Source: a virus. Taken from it: 31,683 nucleotides of DNA. The notes below the pieces were generated by a model. The model ran no database searches, was not told where the DNA came from, and worked only from the letters and a program-made list of their open reading frames with translations. The DNA lies in IMG/VR virus record IMGVR_UViG_3300038306_000104, positions 1 through 31,683 of that record; one strand, written 5' to 3'. Each line of letters begins with the position of its first letter. Positions within the stretch are counted from its first letter, which is position 1. Positions 1,257 to 13,123 of this stretch are shown piece by piece. The position numbers were made by a program, and so were the translations under genes.

Positions 1257-1484
1257 CTAGTAGTCCATTGGTTTGCCACATTTAAGGCAGTAGTTGTCCT
1301 CATCACGTTCGTGTAAAGGACATTTTATATTGTCTAGACCTCTGAGAAACCCAAAGGTATAGACTTCTTCATCATATTCCATGATCATAATAGGACTAGT
1401 ATCAATAAACACACTACATACACAGTAACATAACTCTAAACAAGAGCATATACTGTCATATATAGAGACGTTTTGATTTGACAC
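1257..1484 (-). CDS. Small protein with C-terminal zinc-ribbon half
   Basis: The frame begins with GTG at 1484 and ends MDY. The C-terminus carries a compact zinc-binding pattern, CPLH then YCLKCGKPM, of the zinc-knuckle type frequent in archaeal virus proteins. The N-terminal 30 residues hold five cysteines in an odd hydrophobic context (SICSCLELCYCVC). This part may be genuine or may lie upstream of the true start: in-frame ATGs at residues 32 and 34 would give a ~43-residue protein. A weak TTTTAA element sits about 22-25 nt upstream of the GTG. The function is unknown; nucleic-acid or protein binding is only inferred from the zinc motif. Confidence 0.5.
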   Translation of the reverse strand: MSNQNVSIYDSICSCLELCYCVCSVFIDTSPIMIMEYDEEVYTFGFLRGLDNIKCPLHERDEDNYCLKCGKPMDY

Positions 1485-1499
1485 TAGTCATGATAATAT

Positions 1500-2290
1500 T
1501 CCCTTAAAACCATACGTACGTACGTAATCGTACTACCGTAGGTTTTCTAGTTACAAGTGTCCCCGTAAGGGGTGTTCTTTATACTACCGTTTGTGCCTGA
1601 GATTTGGTCTTTGTAATTGCCTAGTACGGCTAACCTATTCATCAGGTCATCTGTTTGGTTACGTACATACGTACGTATAATGTCTTTCAAGTGGTTTCAG
1701 TTATTAAGGATGTTTCACCACCACTAACTTTTCAAGTAATTTCTTACCAGCCGACTACGCCTAGAGCCACTCTCGGTATGAGTTTATGCCTACTAGTACG
1801 TACGTACTGTCTATAAGAAATGGTGATAATTCACCAAATTCATAGGTAGTCTTACGACTACGTTTACCTCAGATGTTTCGCCAATCATACTATACGTACG
1901 TATTGGTTTATCACCTGATTTGTCTTACAGTTATAACTTTCCCCTTTCGAGTGCGTGCTCTGTTGGACACGTTCGACCATCATAAAGTGATGTTTAGGCT
2001 CATAGTAACCCTTTAAGATTGAGATATCTCTAAGGTTCTATTAGACACGACTACCCTCGACACATTGGCGTATGCTGAACGAGTTCTCATACTCATTCCG
2101 TGCCTAGTGCCTATTAATAGCCCTATCACCAAATGGTTCATAGGTTGAGTCCTAAGACTAACAACTTGAACTTGTGGTCTAAGAAAGCGACCACGCCTGA
2201 GAGATCATCTCAGACAACCCTTAATGCGTATCGGTACATATAACATTTCCACAGTGTTTAGGAACGAATAACCCGTGGGTGGTCGACATA
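1500..2290. other. Gene-free structured block with repeated palindromes (origin or large ncRNA candidate)
   Basis: About 790 bp hold no convincing gene on either strand, and the GC content is visibly higher than in the coding regions. Four TACGTACGTA-type palindromes occur at 1513-1526, 1660-1677, 1796-1807 and 1892-1903. A module TCACCAAAT..TTCATAGGT followed by a hairpin occurs twice (1830-1861 and 2125-2158), the hairpins being GTAGTC/GACTAC and AGTC/GACT. Other perfect stems: CCCC-GTAA-GGGG (1561-1572), GTGGTC/GACCAC (2174-2194), CTGAGA/TCTCAG (2197-2213). A minus-strand TATA box lies at 2283-2293. The layout fits a replication origin with iterons or a long structured RNA; the sequence alone does not decide. 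Confidence 0.6.
1513..1903. repeat. Four dispersed TACGTACGTA palindromes
   Basis: Copies are TACGTACGTACGTA (1513-1526), TACGTACATACGTACGTA (1660-1677), GTACGTACGTAC (1796-1807) and ATACGTACGTAT (1892-1903), spaced about 147, 136 and 96 bp apart. All are self-complementary or nearly so, as expected for binding sites of a dimeric protein. The second and third are followed by related sequence (TGTCT..AAG), so they sit in a larger repeated context and are not simple-sequence noise. Confidence 0.7.
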
Positions 2291-2293
2291 TAA
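2283..2293 (-). promoter_or_regulatory. Minus-strand TATA box facing the gene-free block
   Basis: The minus strand reads TTTTTTATATG here. With the ~26-nt spacing seen elsewhere, transcription would begin near 2262 and run leftward through the whole gene-free block toward the gene ending at 1257. This is the best evidence that the block is transcribed, either as an RNA of its own or as a very long leader. Confidence 0.4.
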
Positions 2294-2417
2294 AAAATCC
2301 CATTTTTGAGAATTAGAGGATATATATATGTTATGAATCGGACAGGACTGGAAATAATTGATAATCAATATATTATATAAAGATACATTTATATTATCTG
2401 TTTCATTATAAATAATT

Positions 2418-2684
2418 ATGTTAATAGAAACATTGGTTATATGCTCATTAATAATCAACGCACCATATTATGACTGTGATGAAACATGGCAAATATATAT
2501 TTTTGATAAAGATTCATGGAAATATTGTACCGAATATAACAGTTATGCGTGTGCGAAATGGTTTCCAAAAAGAATCTATATAGGATTAGACCATTATGAT
2601 TCATGGAAAGATAGTTGCGGTCATACATTATTATTTCATGAGTTAAATCATCTTAAATATCTAAGTGAAAATTATTGTCATTAA
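2418..2684 (+). CDS. Small exported HExxH (zincin-like) protein, 88 aa
   Basis: The frame starts at ATG 2418 with a TATA box (CATTTATATTA, 2386-2396) about 27 nt upstream, giving a leaderless transcript. Residues 1-15 are hydrophobic and resemble a signal peptide or membrane anchor. Residues 74-78 read HELNH, the zinc-binding catalytic HExxH motif of zincin metallopeptidases, in the context GHTLLFHELNHLKYL. Cysteines at 20, 37, 45, 67 and 87 could form disulfides outside the cell. The protein is much shorter than usual zincins, so it is either a minimal enzyme or a domain fragment. A lysis or cell-surface role is inference. It is the only plus-strand gene in the left arm and its 3' end overlaps the convergent nuclease gene by 32 nt. 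Confidence 0.75.
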   Translation: MLIETLVICSLIINAPYYDCDETWQIYIFDKDSWKYCTEYNSYACAKWFPKRIYIGLDHYDSWKDSCGHTLLFHELNHLKYLSENYCH

Positions 2685-3201
2685 AGTCATAGGCTGGGGA
2701 CTTTAAACCATAACCGTTTAACACTCCCTTGTAATGAATGTGTCCAAGTACCTCATATAGGTTTGTGCCTAGACTGAGAGAATGTTTCCTTATATACTCT
2801 TTCTTTAGGAGATAGGCTTCCTTTGATTTAGTATCTCCCTTGCCTATGAACGAGACCTGTCTACTTTTACTATCAAGAATTGCATTGTTTATAAGTGTCG
2901 GGGTGGTTAGGATATATTCGTCTCCACAATCAAATACCCAGTAGTCAGCCTTTGTGGTACTTAGTGCACTGGGCTTGCCTCCGAATGAGGTTTCTATTAC
3001 CAAGTTTCCCGTGTCTTGTGATTTCCTATCTCTTTTAGCCTCTACACTCTTTCTTAACTCTGGGATGTATATGTCATAGTCTTTGAAATATCCTTCCTTT
3101 ATATAGGCGTGGGGGAAGTTCTTGTTCAACTCGTCCAGCACCATGCCCTCAAAATTTTTGCCTACGGCAAGATCCTTATGAAACGTGTCATTGACACCCA
3201 T
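2653..3201 (-). CDS. PD-(D/E)XK-family nuclease candidate, 182 aa
   Basis: A leaderless promoter (minus-strand GATATATATAAGG, about 3219-3231) sits ~26 nt before the ATG at 3201. The N-terminal half has the PD-(D/E)XK arrangement: an early acidic helix (GKNFEGMVLDELNK), then YDIYIPE followed by a beta strand with KSVEAKRD, where D and ExK are the expected metal and catalytic residues. Holliday-junction resolvases and phage recombination nucleases share this core. The C-terminal half (residues ~85-182) is not recognised. It probably acts on viral DNA in replication, recombination or packaging. The gene converges on and overlaps the HExxH gene. Confidence 0.65.
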   Translation of the reverse strand: MGVNDTFHKDLAVGKNFEGMVLDELNKNFPHAYIKEGYFKDYDIYIPELRKSVEAKRDRKSQDTGNLVIETSFGGKPSALSTTKADYWVFDCGDEYILTTPTLINNAILDSKSRQVSFIGKGDTKSKEAYLLKKEYIRKHSLSLGTNLYEVLGHIHYKGVLNGYGLKSPAYDFNDNNFHLDI

Positions 3202-5786: not shown

Positions 5787-7649
5787 ATGGGTTTACGTGC
5801 TAGAATCAGTAGTATTAGAAACACCCTTAGCCCCGTAAACAAAGGTTATACAGAATCAACTACTAGACCTTCTGTAGCACAACCTTATATGGCAACTGAT
5901 ACAGGTGCTAAACTTCCTATATTCCCATTCCCTCTCATAATGATTTATGAGTTGGCAGATAACATTGATGCTTTACGTATTCCTATTGAGACTCTAAACA
6001 GAGAAATGTTCAAGAATGGTTGGCAGATCACCGAACGTTTCAAGTACAAATGTAATCAATGTAGTAAAGAATTTCAATATGCTCCTAATGTAGCAGTTGA
6101 AGGTGAAGAACCAAAGAAGGTACAACAAATACAATGTGACTCATGTCAAAGTTATGATTTACGAACCCCTGTACCAGAGCACCGTAAGATTATTGAAGAT
6201 TTGATAAATAAACCTGTTAATGGAAACGCCCAAAATCTGGAAGACGTATCTAGACAATTAGAAAGAGATTTAGAAATAGCAGATAATGCTTACTTGCTTT
6301 TATTAAAGAATTACTTTATTGATGATATTACTGGAGAAATTGATGAATCTAAAACAGAGATAAAAGAACTATTAAGAATTGATCCACCACAAGTCGCAAT
6401 GATTGCCGACTCTGATGGTAGAATCGGTTATGATGATAAGAGACAAAAGATATTTGTATGTCCTAGATTCGAACATAGAGATGCTAGATTATATAATGAT
6501 AGATGTGATCAATGTAACGCTAAAGCCCTAAAGGCAATATTAGAAGTTAACTCTGTTTACTCTATAGGTGTACCACATCCTAAGAGAGTAATTTATGCAG
6601 AGGGTGAAGTTATATGGAAAGCAGGTAAATACAAACCATCTTTAATCTATGGATTCTCTCCTATCTATGCCGTATGGAGTAAGGCTATGGCTCTATCTCA
6701 TATGGATGAATATGTCAGAAAATACTTTGATAAGATGAGACCACCAAGAGGACTCTTAGTTGTAGCATCAAGAAACTATGAAACCTTTAGAAAGTCATGG
6801 GATGCACTTGAACAAAAAGCAACAGAAGACCCATACATGATTCACCCACTTATGGTAGAGTCAGACAAGGGTGGACAGAATATGGCACAATGGTTAGACT
6901 TTACTGGTACATTACAAGAGTTACAGTTCATTGAAGTAAGAAAAGAGTTAAGACAAATTATTGGTGCAGTGTATGGTGTGTTACCTTTGTACTATGGTGA
7001 GATGGTAGGTGGATGGTCACAAGAGGGATTACAAGTTACAATTACAAATCGTGCTGTCAAATGGGGTCAAGACATTCTATACAAATCATTCTTTAAGAAA
7101 TTTGTAGAGTTGATGGGTGTAGATGACTGGGATCTCAGATTAGAAGCAGGAGAAGAGAATGATAAACTATCTGAACTACAAAGAGATGGAGTAGAAATAC
7201 AAAACATGGCTTTACTTCAACAGATGGGATTCAAAGTTACAAGAACCCATACTGGTGAATACAATGTTTCCCAAATACCTGAACCAATAGATGAACTACA
7301 GATGGGTAGAGGTAGAGGAACAGCAGCCCCTGAAGAGAACAGACAAAACTTTGCAGGTCAACCACAACAGAATAGACCATCTGATGTAGGTGGTGTAACC
7401 CAAGGTTCACCTAGTTCTGGTGCAGGAACTTCTCTCTCTCAGAAGAACTTCCCAACAGGCATTACCCCAGATAACTTTGATGTTGTGAAAAAAACATTAC
7501 AATCAGCAATGGATTACAACTGGAAGAAAACTAAAACAGTTGATGAACTTAGAAAGTTTACAGGAATTACAGTAAGAGAAGCACGTAACATTGTACAGAA
7601 TGAATTTGACATGGTGAGAAAGTGGGAAGATGACGAAGAGACATCATAG
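5787..7649 (+). CDS. Portal protein, 620 aa
   Basis: Size, position and sequence fit the portal of tailed viruses, the dodecameric ring at the capsid vertex through which DNA enters and leaves. The central part (residues ~255-480) has portal-like stretches: a conserved LIYGFSPIYAVWSKAMALSHMDEY helix region, then an ELRQIIGAVYGVLPLYYGEM segment and a GWSQEGLQVT loop. Unusually, residues 89-120 form a zinc ribbon (CNQC...CDSC), and a second Cys/His cluster lies at 225-243 (C, H, CDQC). The C-terminus (from ~495) is Gln/Gly-rich and then helical. No terminase gene is in view upstream, so the packaging motor must be encoded elsewhere. The next gene overlaps by 20 nt. Confidence 0.85.
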   Translation: MGLRARISSIRNTLSPVNKGYTESTTRPSVAQPYMATDTGAKLPIFPFPLIMIYELADNIDALRIPIETLNREMFKNGWQITERFKYKCNQCSKEFQYAPNVAVEGEEPKKVQQIQCDSCQSYDLRTPVPEHRKIIEDLINKPVNGNAQNLEDVSRQLERDLEIADNAYLLLLKNYFIDDITGEIDESKTEIKELLRIDPPQVAMIADSDGRIGYDDKRQKIFVCPRFEHRDARLYNDRCDQCNAKALKAILEVNSVYSIGVPHPKRVIYAEGEVIWKAGKYKPSLIYGFSPIYAVWSKAMALSHMDEYVRKYFDKMRPPRGLLVVASRNYETFRKSWDALEQKATEDPYMIHPLMVESDKGGQNMAQWLDFTGTLQELQFIEVRKELRQIIGAVYGVLPLYYGEMVGGWSQEGLQVTITNRAVKWGQDILYKSFFKKFVELMGVDDWDLRLEAGEENDKLSELQRDGVEIQNMALLQQMGFKVTRTHTGEYNVSQIPEPIDELQMGRGRGTAAPEENRQNFAGQPQQNRPSDVGGVTQGSPSSGAGTSLSQKNFPTGITPDNFDVVKKTLQSAMDYNWKKTKTVDELRKFTGITVREARNIVQNEFDMVRKWEDDEETS

Positions 7650-11351: not shown

Positions 11352-11909
11352 ATGACTATCGAAGAAATCGCAAAATCAAGCGACGACAAGAAAGTAGAAG
11401 AAAAAGATGAAGAGAAAGATGCTAAAAAATCTTTTGATGAAACATTGATTGAAACTCTTTCAACTTTGACAGAACACGTTAAAGCACAATCAGAATCCCT
11501 AGTTGCACTCGATGAGAGACTTACAAAAGCCCTCGAAGAGAAACCAGAGACTCAACTGGACTTCCCAAATACTTCAGATGATGAAGGAATTGGTGAAGAC
11601 GTAAAAGTCCCAGATACCTATCAATCCAATTCTGTTCAAGCAGAATTAGATGCTGATGGCGAAGGTGCAGAGAAAGATCCAGAAGACCTTGTTATGCAAG
11701 AAAAATCTGAGAAAACTAACTTTGATTTCACCACTGAGACTCCAAGACCAGCAGCATCTGTTGAAACTATAAACAAATCAGAGCAATCTGAATTGAATAT
11801 GGTTCTAAAAGATGCACGAGAACAAGGTTTCGACAGTTTATCTGTCGTAGCACAACGAATTTTGAAAGGTGATTACTACACTCCTACACAAGAGGAGGCA
11901 TGGTTCTAA
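11352..11909 (+). CDS. Acidic scaffold-like protein, 185 aa
   Basis: Very acidic, with a helical coiled-coil region (~25-65, SFDETLIETLSTLTEHVKAQ then SLVALDERL) followed by a disordered acidic linker and a C-terminal helix (NMVLKDAREQGFDSLSVVAQ) ending near AWF. Position between protease and major capsid protein, charge and length fit a scaffolding protein or capsid delta-like domain that drives procapsid assembly and is removed by the protease. The stop codon is shared with the capsid start (TAATG). CTTTATAAG (11316-11324) and CTTATATAA (11327-11335) are promoter candidates. Confidence 0.65.
   Translation: MTIEEIAKSSDDKKVEEKDEEKDAKKSFDETLIETLSTLTEHVKAQSESLVALDERLTKALEEKPETQLDFPNTSDDEGIGEDVKVPDTYQSNSVQAELDADGEGAEKDPEDLVMQEKSEKTNFDFTTETPRPAASVETINKSEQSELNMVLKDAREQGFDSLSVVAQRILKGDYYTPTQEEAWF
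11892..11898 (+). promoter_or_regulatory. Strong Shine-Dalgarno GAGGAGG before the capsid gene
   Basis: GAGGAGG lies 10 nt before ATG 11909 but only 1 nt before ATG 11900. This decides for the downstream start and shows that the capsid protein, unlike the leaderless genes, is translated from an internal ribosome site. Confidence 0.6.
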
Positions 11910-13123
11910 TGGTTCAAATCAGAACTATTGACGAACTAGAGGCACTCTATTATGGACAGAATAGAAACCTAATCAGAAAAGCTGATTCCCCTGTTACTAC
12001 ATCAACATCTGGCGTTTTCAACGCTATATTTGGTGCATATGCATGGGCTCAACTCAACTTAGAAGCAAATGCTTTTGGTATCTTACCAAAAGTTCCTTGG
12101 GACAAATCTGGTTGGAGGGCAATCACTGCCAAACCAACTTTGAATACGAACCAAGGTAATACAACTCTAGGTGGTACTTCTGAAGGTGGAAATATTGCTG
12201 AAACCGTAAAGCCAACTTTACAAGAGATTGACGTCAGACCAAAAACTGCTCAGTTGCCATTCAGTGCATCTGAAGTTATGGAGTGGCTCGCAACTCACAG
12301 TAAAGACGATATCTGGGGAGGCTTAGGCTCACTCAGATTATACATGGCTGTTCAGCATAAAGAATTCATGAATAGAATGTTGCTCGCAGATGTTGAATCA
12401 GAAGCAGCAGGAGCAAGTGCAAATAACGCAGGTACAACCAATTTCGAATCATTGGATAGAATTATTTCTTCCAATGCAGAAGAAACAGCATTAGGTGGTA
12501 CTTACGATGGAATGTACGATCCTTGGGCAGCTAACGCTACCATTGACCGTGACGGTTCAAGCACTTTTGACTGTACTGTTGAATCAGCATCAGGTACAAT
12601 AGGAACAGATGGTGTTCTTACCGATGATACACTACGAACTTTCCTTAGAAAGATCCGTATTGCAGCAGGTAAAGATCCAAACGTATTCCTAGGTTCTCAC
12701 GAAGTTTATTCCGAAATACAAGGCTTATACATGCCTTCAGTCCGTATTCCAAACCCTTACGGTGAAGCATTAGTACAAGTTGATGTAAACGGTATCCAAA
12801 CTTTCAAAGGAACTGGAGTCGGAATTCACGTAGATTCTATCTATGGTATCCCATTCATCCCTTCAAAAGATGCCCCATCTGGTGGCGGAAATGAAGTCGG
12901 AAGACTATTTGCATTAGATACTTCTGATGCAGAAGGTTACGGATATCCAAGAATTGGAATTCAAGTCGCAATCCCAACTGAGTACTATGAAGCAACACGT
13001 AGAACACCAGCTTATCCATTCGTGAACAACGCTTTCGTTGAGAAAGGTGTTTACAGAACAATGGGTGAAACCGTTTGTCGTCACTTCAAATCACAAGGTA
13101 AGATCAGAGACATTAAACTCTAG
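11909..13123 (+). CDS. Major capsid protein (HK97-fold), 404 aa
   Basis: Directly after protease and scaffold, with the size of HK97-type capsid proteins. The sequence has the expected mix: an N-terminal helix (TIDELEALYYGQNRN), a loop with VPWDKSGWRAITAKPT, a helix KEFMNRMLLADVESEAAG that resembles the spine helix, and a C-terminal beta-rich part with YGIPFIPSKDAP and QVAIPTEYYEATRRTPAY. The start is ATG 11909, justified by the GAGGAGG site and the TAATG overlap. Codon choice is richer in C-ending codons than in neighbours, consistent with very high expression. A poly-T terminator follows. Confidence 0.8.
   Translation: MVQIRTIDELEALYYGQNRNLIRKADSPVTTSTSGVFNAIFGAYAWAQLNLEANAFGILPKVPWDKSGWRAITAKPTLNTNQGNTTLGGTSEGGNIAETVKPTLQEIDVRPKTAQLPFSASEVMEWLATHSKDDIWGGLGSLRLYMAVQHKEFMNRMLLADVESEAAGASANNAGTTNFESLDRIISSNAEETALGGTYDGMYDPWAANATIDRDGSSTFDCTVESASGTIGTDGVLTDDTLRTFLRKIRIAAGKDPNVFLGSHEVYSEIQGLYMPSVRIPNPYGEALVQVDVNGIQTFKGTGVGIHVDSIYGIPFIPSKDAPSGGGNEVGRLFALDTSDAEGYGYPRIGIQVAIPTEYYEATRRTPAYPFVNNAFVEKGVYRTMGETVCRHFKSQGKIRDIKL

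Follow-up and report, generated by a model that had tools for sequence, protein, structure and literature searches.

A gene-free block in a tailed-virus contig is a composite of three things, namely a conserved DNA element, a candidate RNA part and a group of palindromes; the finding is real and interesting, but composite. The best-supported reading, towards which we lean, is a locus in which a family-wide DNA element is combined with a clade-specific structured RNA, with a possible role as origin. We also propose, tentatively, that thaumarchaeal tailed viruses have a family-wide 90-bp control element with a probable link to the origin and, after it, a slot of interchangeable content: a small protein gene in some viruses, a new and rapidly evolving structured RNA in others.

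The virus and its gene-free block

Few marine microbes are as abundant as ammonia-oxidising archaea. To our knowledge, little is known about the replication of their tailed viruses, or about the use that these viruses make of structured RNAs. The window (the whole stretch of DNA analysed, 31.7 kb) carries genes for a portal, a major head protein (11900-13123) and a tail. Left of about 5.7 kb its genes lie mostly on the minus strand, the structural genes being on the plus strand, and the gene-free block sits within the leftward gene train. A Thaumarchaeota genome bin contains one relative of the window's portal and the archaeal-type helicase MCM is encoded in related viral contigs, so that the host is most likely a thaumarchaeon and the contig that of a thaumarchaeal tailed virus. 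Eighty viral loci were collected through the portal protein and a portal alignment. The only close relative of the window was the B virus (L004), which aligned with the 3' part of the block. The features discussed below are as follows.

1451-1480, minus strand: promoter-like sequence CAAATCAAAACGTCTCTATATATGACAGTA for the downstream leftward genes
1513-1526: double palindrome TACGTACGTACGTA adjoining the downstream promoter
1668-1677: palindrome TACGTACGTA, site 3
1797-1806: palindrome TACGTACGTA, site 2, in a context common to the B virus
1807-1836, minus strand: likely RNA 3' end, hairpin UGGUGA-AUUA-UCACCA, then UUUCUUAUAG
1812-2241, minus strand: candidate structured RNA of about 430 nt, ends approximate (from fold z, GNRA hairpins and clade membership)
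1831-1861, minus strand: module copy 2, hairpin GUAGUC-GUAA-GACUAC (GNRA loop), then CUAUGAAUUUGGUGA
1893-1902: palindrome TACGTACGTA, site 1, within the RNA region
2126-2161, minus strand: module copy 1, hairpin with UUAG loop, then ACCUAUGAACCAUUUGGUGA (direct reading)
2174-2194, minus strand: perfect hairpin GUGGUC-GCUUUCUUA-GACCAC
2197-2213, minus strand: perfect hairpin CUGAGA-UGAUC-UCUCAG
2242-2328, minus strand: conserved element of about 90 bp (A-tract/T-tract, CCATR-type core, end ..AACACTGTGGAAATGTT; profile search)
5787-7649, plus strand: portal gene, anchor for relatives (PHROG 18178 portal, E 3e-39)

The block had been put forward in a preliminary description as one gene-free unit, either a large structured RNA or a replication origin. 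Its gene-free nature was confirmed, the gap spanning 1485-2417 with no ORF above 53 aa within the block. The four palindrome sites were confirmed and comprise five exact copies of TACGTACGTA (1513, 1517, 1668, 1797 and 1893), and eight matches with at most one mismatch occurred in the window vs 0.34 expected. The duplicated module TCACCAAAT..TTCATAGGT was likewise recovered (1831-1847 and 2126-2145, 295 bp apart), a short hairpin adjoining each copy. "At least six" perfect stems became five of at least 6 bp (1.6 expected), and both strands folded better than dinucleotide shuffles (z -4.1 for minus, -2.9 for plus). The block was indeed richer in GC than the window as a whole (0.415 vs 0.339), but not richer than the left genes (positions 1-1000, about 0.41). 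Searches of Rfam, INPHARED and PLSDB with the block returned no match, none of the Rfam covariance models, GOLLD, ROOL and OLE included, reached its gathering score, and no tRNA was present in the window. The block did not hold as a single unit, the palindromes of one relative (L017) lying about 4 kb from the element. Of the two functions first suggested, the RNA is supported in the window's clade and the support for an origin is indirect.

A family-wide DNA element, its slot and the downstream promoter

The element was recognised with a profile built from four viruses (L002, which is the window, L004, L014 and L017), and this profile matched further relatives with E down to about 1e-11 in loci outside it. 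After iteration the element was found in 58 loci, representing 39 distinct sequences and always in the same orientation; in 38 viruses (38 tree rows) it lay 1.3-4.5 kb upstream of the portal. The profile had no match in eight loci where the sequence upstream of the portal measured at least 2 kb; most of these were too short to reach the position of the element in every lineage. The window and four long contigs each had a single copy of the element, and an independent downstream gene led to it again, beside that gene, in two contigs outside the profile (L243 and L245). Its minus-strand consensus reads TTGTAT - about 15 - AAAAATnGnTTTTTTCnCCATRnGnACT - about 25 - AACACTGTGGAAATGTT. Direct CGAYTTGTATC repeats (TAATTTTTT), one to three in number and often spaced 11 or 22 bp, stand just upstream and end at the element (examples are L012, L059, L071 and L074).

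RNAalifold found no base pair and no consensus secondary structure in the element, which ruled it out as an RNA structure. Since its sequence is conserved but its structure is not, the element is read from its sequence as a DNA site. It is not the minus-strand TATA box first described there: TTTTTTATATG (2287-2297) proved to be the window's variant of a T-tract that appears as TTTTTTCNCCATR or similar in most relatives and is followed by CNCCATR or similar, and the TATA promoter was ruled out because the box is not conserved in homologues. We take the element to be a family-wide cis-acting DNA element, whose sequence, copy number, orientation and place are observed and whose role would be one of genome-level control, most plausibly replication initiation. 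Its predictable place in dozens of genomes makes it a direct target for origin mapping.

A single-copy, strongly conserved, non-coding sequence could also be a packaging site (cos/pac). Yet TerL was about 23-30 kb distant in the records used to compare element positions, and similarly long contigs had different starting points, which is evidence against fixed ends. The cos/pac reading was rejected on the distance of TerL, and we consider it very unlikely.

The sequence to the right of the element has the appearance of an insertion site. In the window it is occupied by a gene for 182 aa (2653-3201, minus strand), with relatives, mostly at 43-57%, in many other viral contigs; an HNH-like gene takes this position in the B virus.

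The content of the 500-1000 nt that follow the element on the minus strand differed by lineage. Many lineages other than the window's had an ORF of 65-150 aa in this slot, usually plus-strand and directed towards the element, and in L017 and L062 a downstream gene directly followed the element. The preliminary description took a conserved reading frame in homologues as an argument against its proposal; frames were encountered only outside the window's clade, as small ORFs that are unrelated. Two otherwise diverged viruses shared a 179-nt segment with 95% identity (offset 562-740 in L059, 733-910 in L066). A short Cys-containing ORF lies there immediately ahead of the next gene, and we read the segment as a recent transfer into the slot. 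The post-element blocks of L243, L245, L246, L068, L019 and L117, some of them with an ORF, folded about equally on both strands (z -3 to -8) and are perhaps long DNA hairpins. A class II glutamine-amidotransferase-like protein (MCVIICxEDGKYP..) is conserved in the leftward operon of this virus family (e.g. L012 4265-5122, minus strand), and its gene adjoins one for a Cys-rich protein of 320-420 aa.

Palindromes showed a far narrower distribution. In all viral contigs, TACGTACGTACGTAYGGT was found in only three distinct viruses, and the double-palindrome arrangement occurred outside the window only in the B virus and in virus D (L017). In the latter, the array lies about 4 kb from the element and again adjoins the promoter of the same downstream gene; the palindromes therefore accompany the downstream promoter rather than the element. 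Their probable role is to bind a regulator or initiator protein. Promoter-like sequences similar to that of the window were located at the 3' border of the block in three relatives (L012, L015 and L014); in L017 one stood beside the same gene.

The block could also serve transcription control only, as a bidirectional T-tract terminator with an operator cluster and a downstream promoter, its hairpins having no further role. The A-tract/T-tract on both strands, the upstream genes that end just before the element, the plus-strand ORFs that face it in many relatives and the promoter-like sequence at the left edge are in line with this. A plain terminator, however, is not expected to be conserved over 90 bp, in single copy and at one place per genome, and transcription control alone leaves both the covarying hairpin and the strand bias of GNRA loops described below unexplained. 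We consider this explanation unlikely.

A candidate RNA in the ORF-less clade

The slot was ORF-less in eight viruses, the window included, which a single branch sets apart in the portal tree (support 86/85; unlabelled rows such as L068 were not counted). Their blocks had a raised GC content (0.39-0.46). Four of them (L012, L014, L059 and L066) share the hairpin NNNNNGGUAG-GAAA-(stem-loop)-UAUAA-CURUCNNNNN, in the outer stem of which both sides were changed in 7 of 14 pairs. Compensatory cells numbered 12 vs 3.6 in shuffles and at most 1 in slid controls, this covariation being carried by only four sequences. One G-U pair was kept in all four members, which indicates the minus strand as the RNA strand.

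Consensus folding was mostly strand-specific, with z of -3.7 (minus) and -0.5 (plus) for L014+L061 and -4.1/-1.9 for L012+L066+L059, L012+L066 alone being the exception (-3.6/-4.5). Single sequences gave -4.9/-1.1 (L012), -6.0/-2.5 (L059) and -4.4/-2.7 (L015). Fold energy alone is no proof, as the ORF-bearing blocks of L245 and L246 fold at z of about -7 on both strands. Stems closed by a GNRA loop numbered 15 on the minus strand of nine ORF-less blocks (expected 3.0, sd 1.8; four of these overlap the element's end) and 0 on the plus strand (expected 1.5). The motif TTTT[AG]CT(T)AA, chosen post hoc, was found at the same place (offset 459-615) in 5 of 8 ORF-less blocks, where it may mark a common 3' boundary. 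A full-length alignment of the clade's RNAs is unreliable at 40-55% identity. A DNA-pattern search for the hairpin in all viral contigs yielded only new matches devoid of outer stem and element, and a search through the downstream amidotransferase gene uncovered new elements and no new hairpin. Altogether, the RNA reading in the window's clade draws support from the compensated substitutions, the strand preference of consensus folding, the confinement of GNRA loops to one strand and the portal tree, which shows a single origin.

The covariation analysis that had been suggested as a check on the RNA thus gave compensatory changes in four relatives, while the covarying hairpin itself was absent from the window, the B virus and L015 (its best match in the window's block scored 7.1 bits vs 49-62 in members). 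Given this absence, we infer the RNA of the window from clade membership and moderate folding evidence, and the stretch from about 2241 to 1812 is probably a structured minus-strand RNA. Positions 1812-2270 folded with z -3.8 on the minus strand vs -2.4 on the plus strand, and the RNA part displayed two GNRA hairpins on minus and none on plus. The consensus fold of the window with the B virus (pair A+B) was weak over the RNA part (-1.3 minus, -0.9 plus) and about equal between strands over the whole block (-3.0/-2.8); the minus strand of the B virus RNA part, taken alone, folded no better than shuffles (-0.96). At the likely 3' end, the window's hairpin UGGUGAAUUAUCACCA with UUUCUUAUAG aligned with a B virus hairpin followed by UUUUUUACUAA, the counterpart there being a hairpin with TTTTTTACTAA at L004:3569-3602. 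A UAUGAA..UUUGG motif related to module copy 1 was also present in the B virus (L004:3817-3834).

The ORF of 65-150 aa found exactly there in many relatives raises the question of whether the block is the decayed remnant of such an ORF. Compensatory changes are not expected from decay, however, and the eight ORF-less viruses make up one clade with shared RNA features and raised GC; decay is thus the explanation to which we give least credit.

Under the favoured composite reading, the region would be transcribed leftward during infection, and the window's clade would produce a structured non-coding RNA of about 400-550 nt from the minus strand downstream of the element, ending near the hairpin and T-rich tract at about 1812. 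Most of the palindromes would lie between this RNA and the promoter that serves the next genes. The transcript may fold and take over, as an RNA, the part that a small accessory protein plays in relatives; in other lineages the same slot accommodates an unrelated small ORF. On the more tentative reading of an interchangeable slot, the RNA would belong to a viral RNA class not described before and would function at the viral origin or from it.

Replication and comparison with known systems

An origin at the block is plausible. In its full form, this reading makes the block the viral replication origin, with initiator sites in the element and in the repeats or palindromes, DNA secondary structure in the hairpins and a viral MCM loaded with help of host Orc1/Cdc6; it is compatible with an RNA being made there too. 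We regard it as possible, though doubtful. MCM was encoded in 11 of 11 long relatives, in none of which Orc1/Cdc6 exceeded the cut-off, and no initiator gene was found beside the block. Host oriC lies beside cdc6 and contains ORBs (CCTGGAGTGGAAATAAAGGGGT), from 29 sites of which a matrix was built. With this matrix, the three best matches of the 64.6-kb record L098 fell in its block, two of them inverted and 134 bp apart; ORBs were also present in L099 and L114, and 7 of the 13 matches across all relatives fell in the block (p 4e-6). The element itself terminates in GTGGAAAT, the ORB core, and one to three CGAYTTGTATC repeats precede the element. The block further combines a very long non-coding stretch with a single-copy conserved DNA element, and is the second longest gap in G004 and G005, where the longer gaps are at piece borders.

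Other observations speak against an origin. No full ORB occurred in the window or in most clades, and the best match of the window (14.1 bits) was outside the block; two or more ORBs flanking an AT-rich stretch were absent from the window and present in L098 and L114. Even in L098 the ORBs lie 400-850 nt away from the element, and the palindromes are limited to three viruses. The GC skew, proposed earlier as a check, has a minimum within a few kb of the element that is explained by the gene-strand switch; as the skew simply tracks gene direction, it was dropped as proof of an origin. The presence of ORBs in one subclade points to use of the host initiator by viruses that encode an MCM of their own.

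Host-type ORBs (GACTGGAGTGGAAAT..) occurred as inverted and direct copies in the blocks of L098 (7393-7837), L099 (7445) and L114 (7485-7909), with tandem TCTCTTTAAATACTTC repeats between the copies. Host cdc6 loci (L180 and L184-L212, thaumarchaeal oriC) displayed two direct ORBs 61-62 bp apart, an inverted ORB about 100-170 bp away and repeated TTGTTAACAA palindromes.

Archaeal chromosomal origins are intergenic, rich in repeats and palindromes, and have ORBs beside cdc6 (PMC4010727, PMC4164010). The block is likewise intergenic and rich in repeats and palindromes, its element ends in the ORB core GTGGAAAT, and its relatives L098 and L114 possess real inverted ORBs. It differs by the lack of a detected initiator gene and, in the window, by TACGTACGTA palindromes instead of ORBs.

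Thaumarchaeal mobile elements recruit MCM, according to the available text of PMC6563490. The head-tail proviruses treated in that text had no identifiable replication genes, and the conserved site of the present block is not mentioned in it. The likeness is in an element-encoded MCM that is expected to draw in the host replisome.

GOLLD and ROOL are large structured RNAs of phages and prophages, of unknown function (PMC12286853). The candidate RNA differs from them in being shorter, in having no Rfam match, an archaeal host and a window devoid of tRNA, and in changing fast in sequence while being tied to a conserved DNA element. Like them, it would be large, structured and encoded by a tailed virus of prokaryotes. 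Were a structured RNA to stand in for a protein gene in one clade, the range of large viral RNAs of the GOLLD/ROOL type would extend to archaeal viruses.
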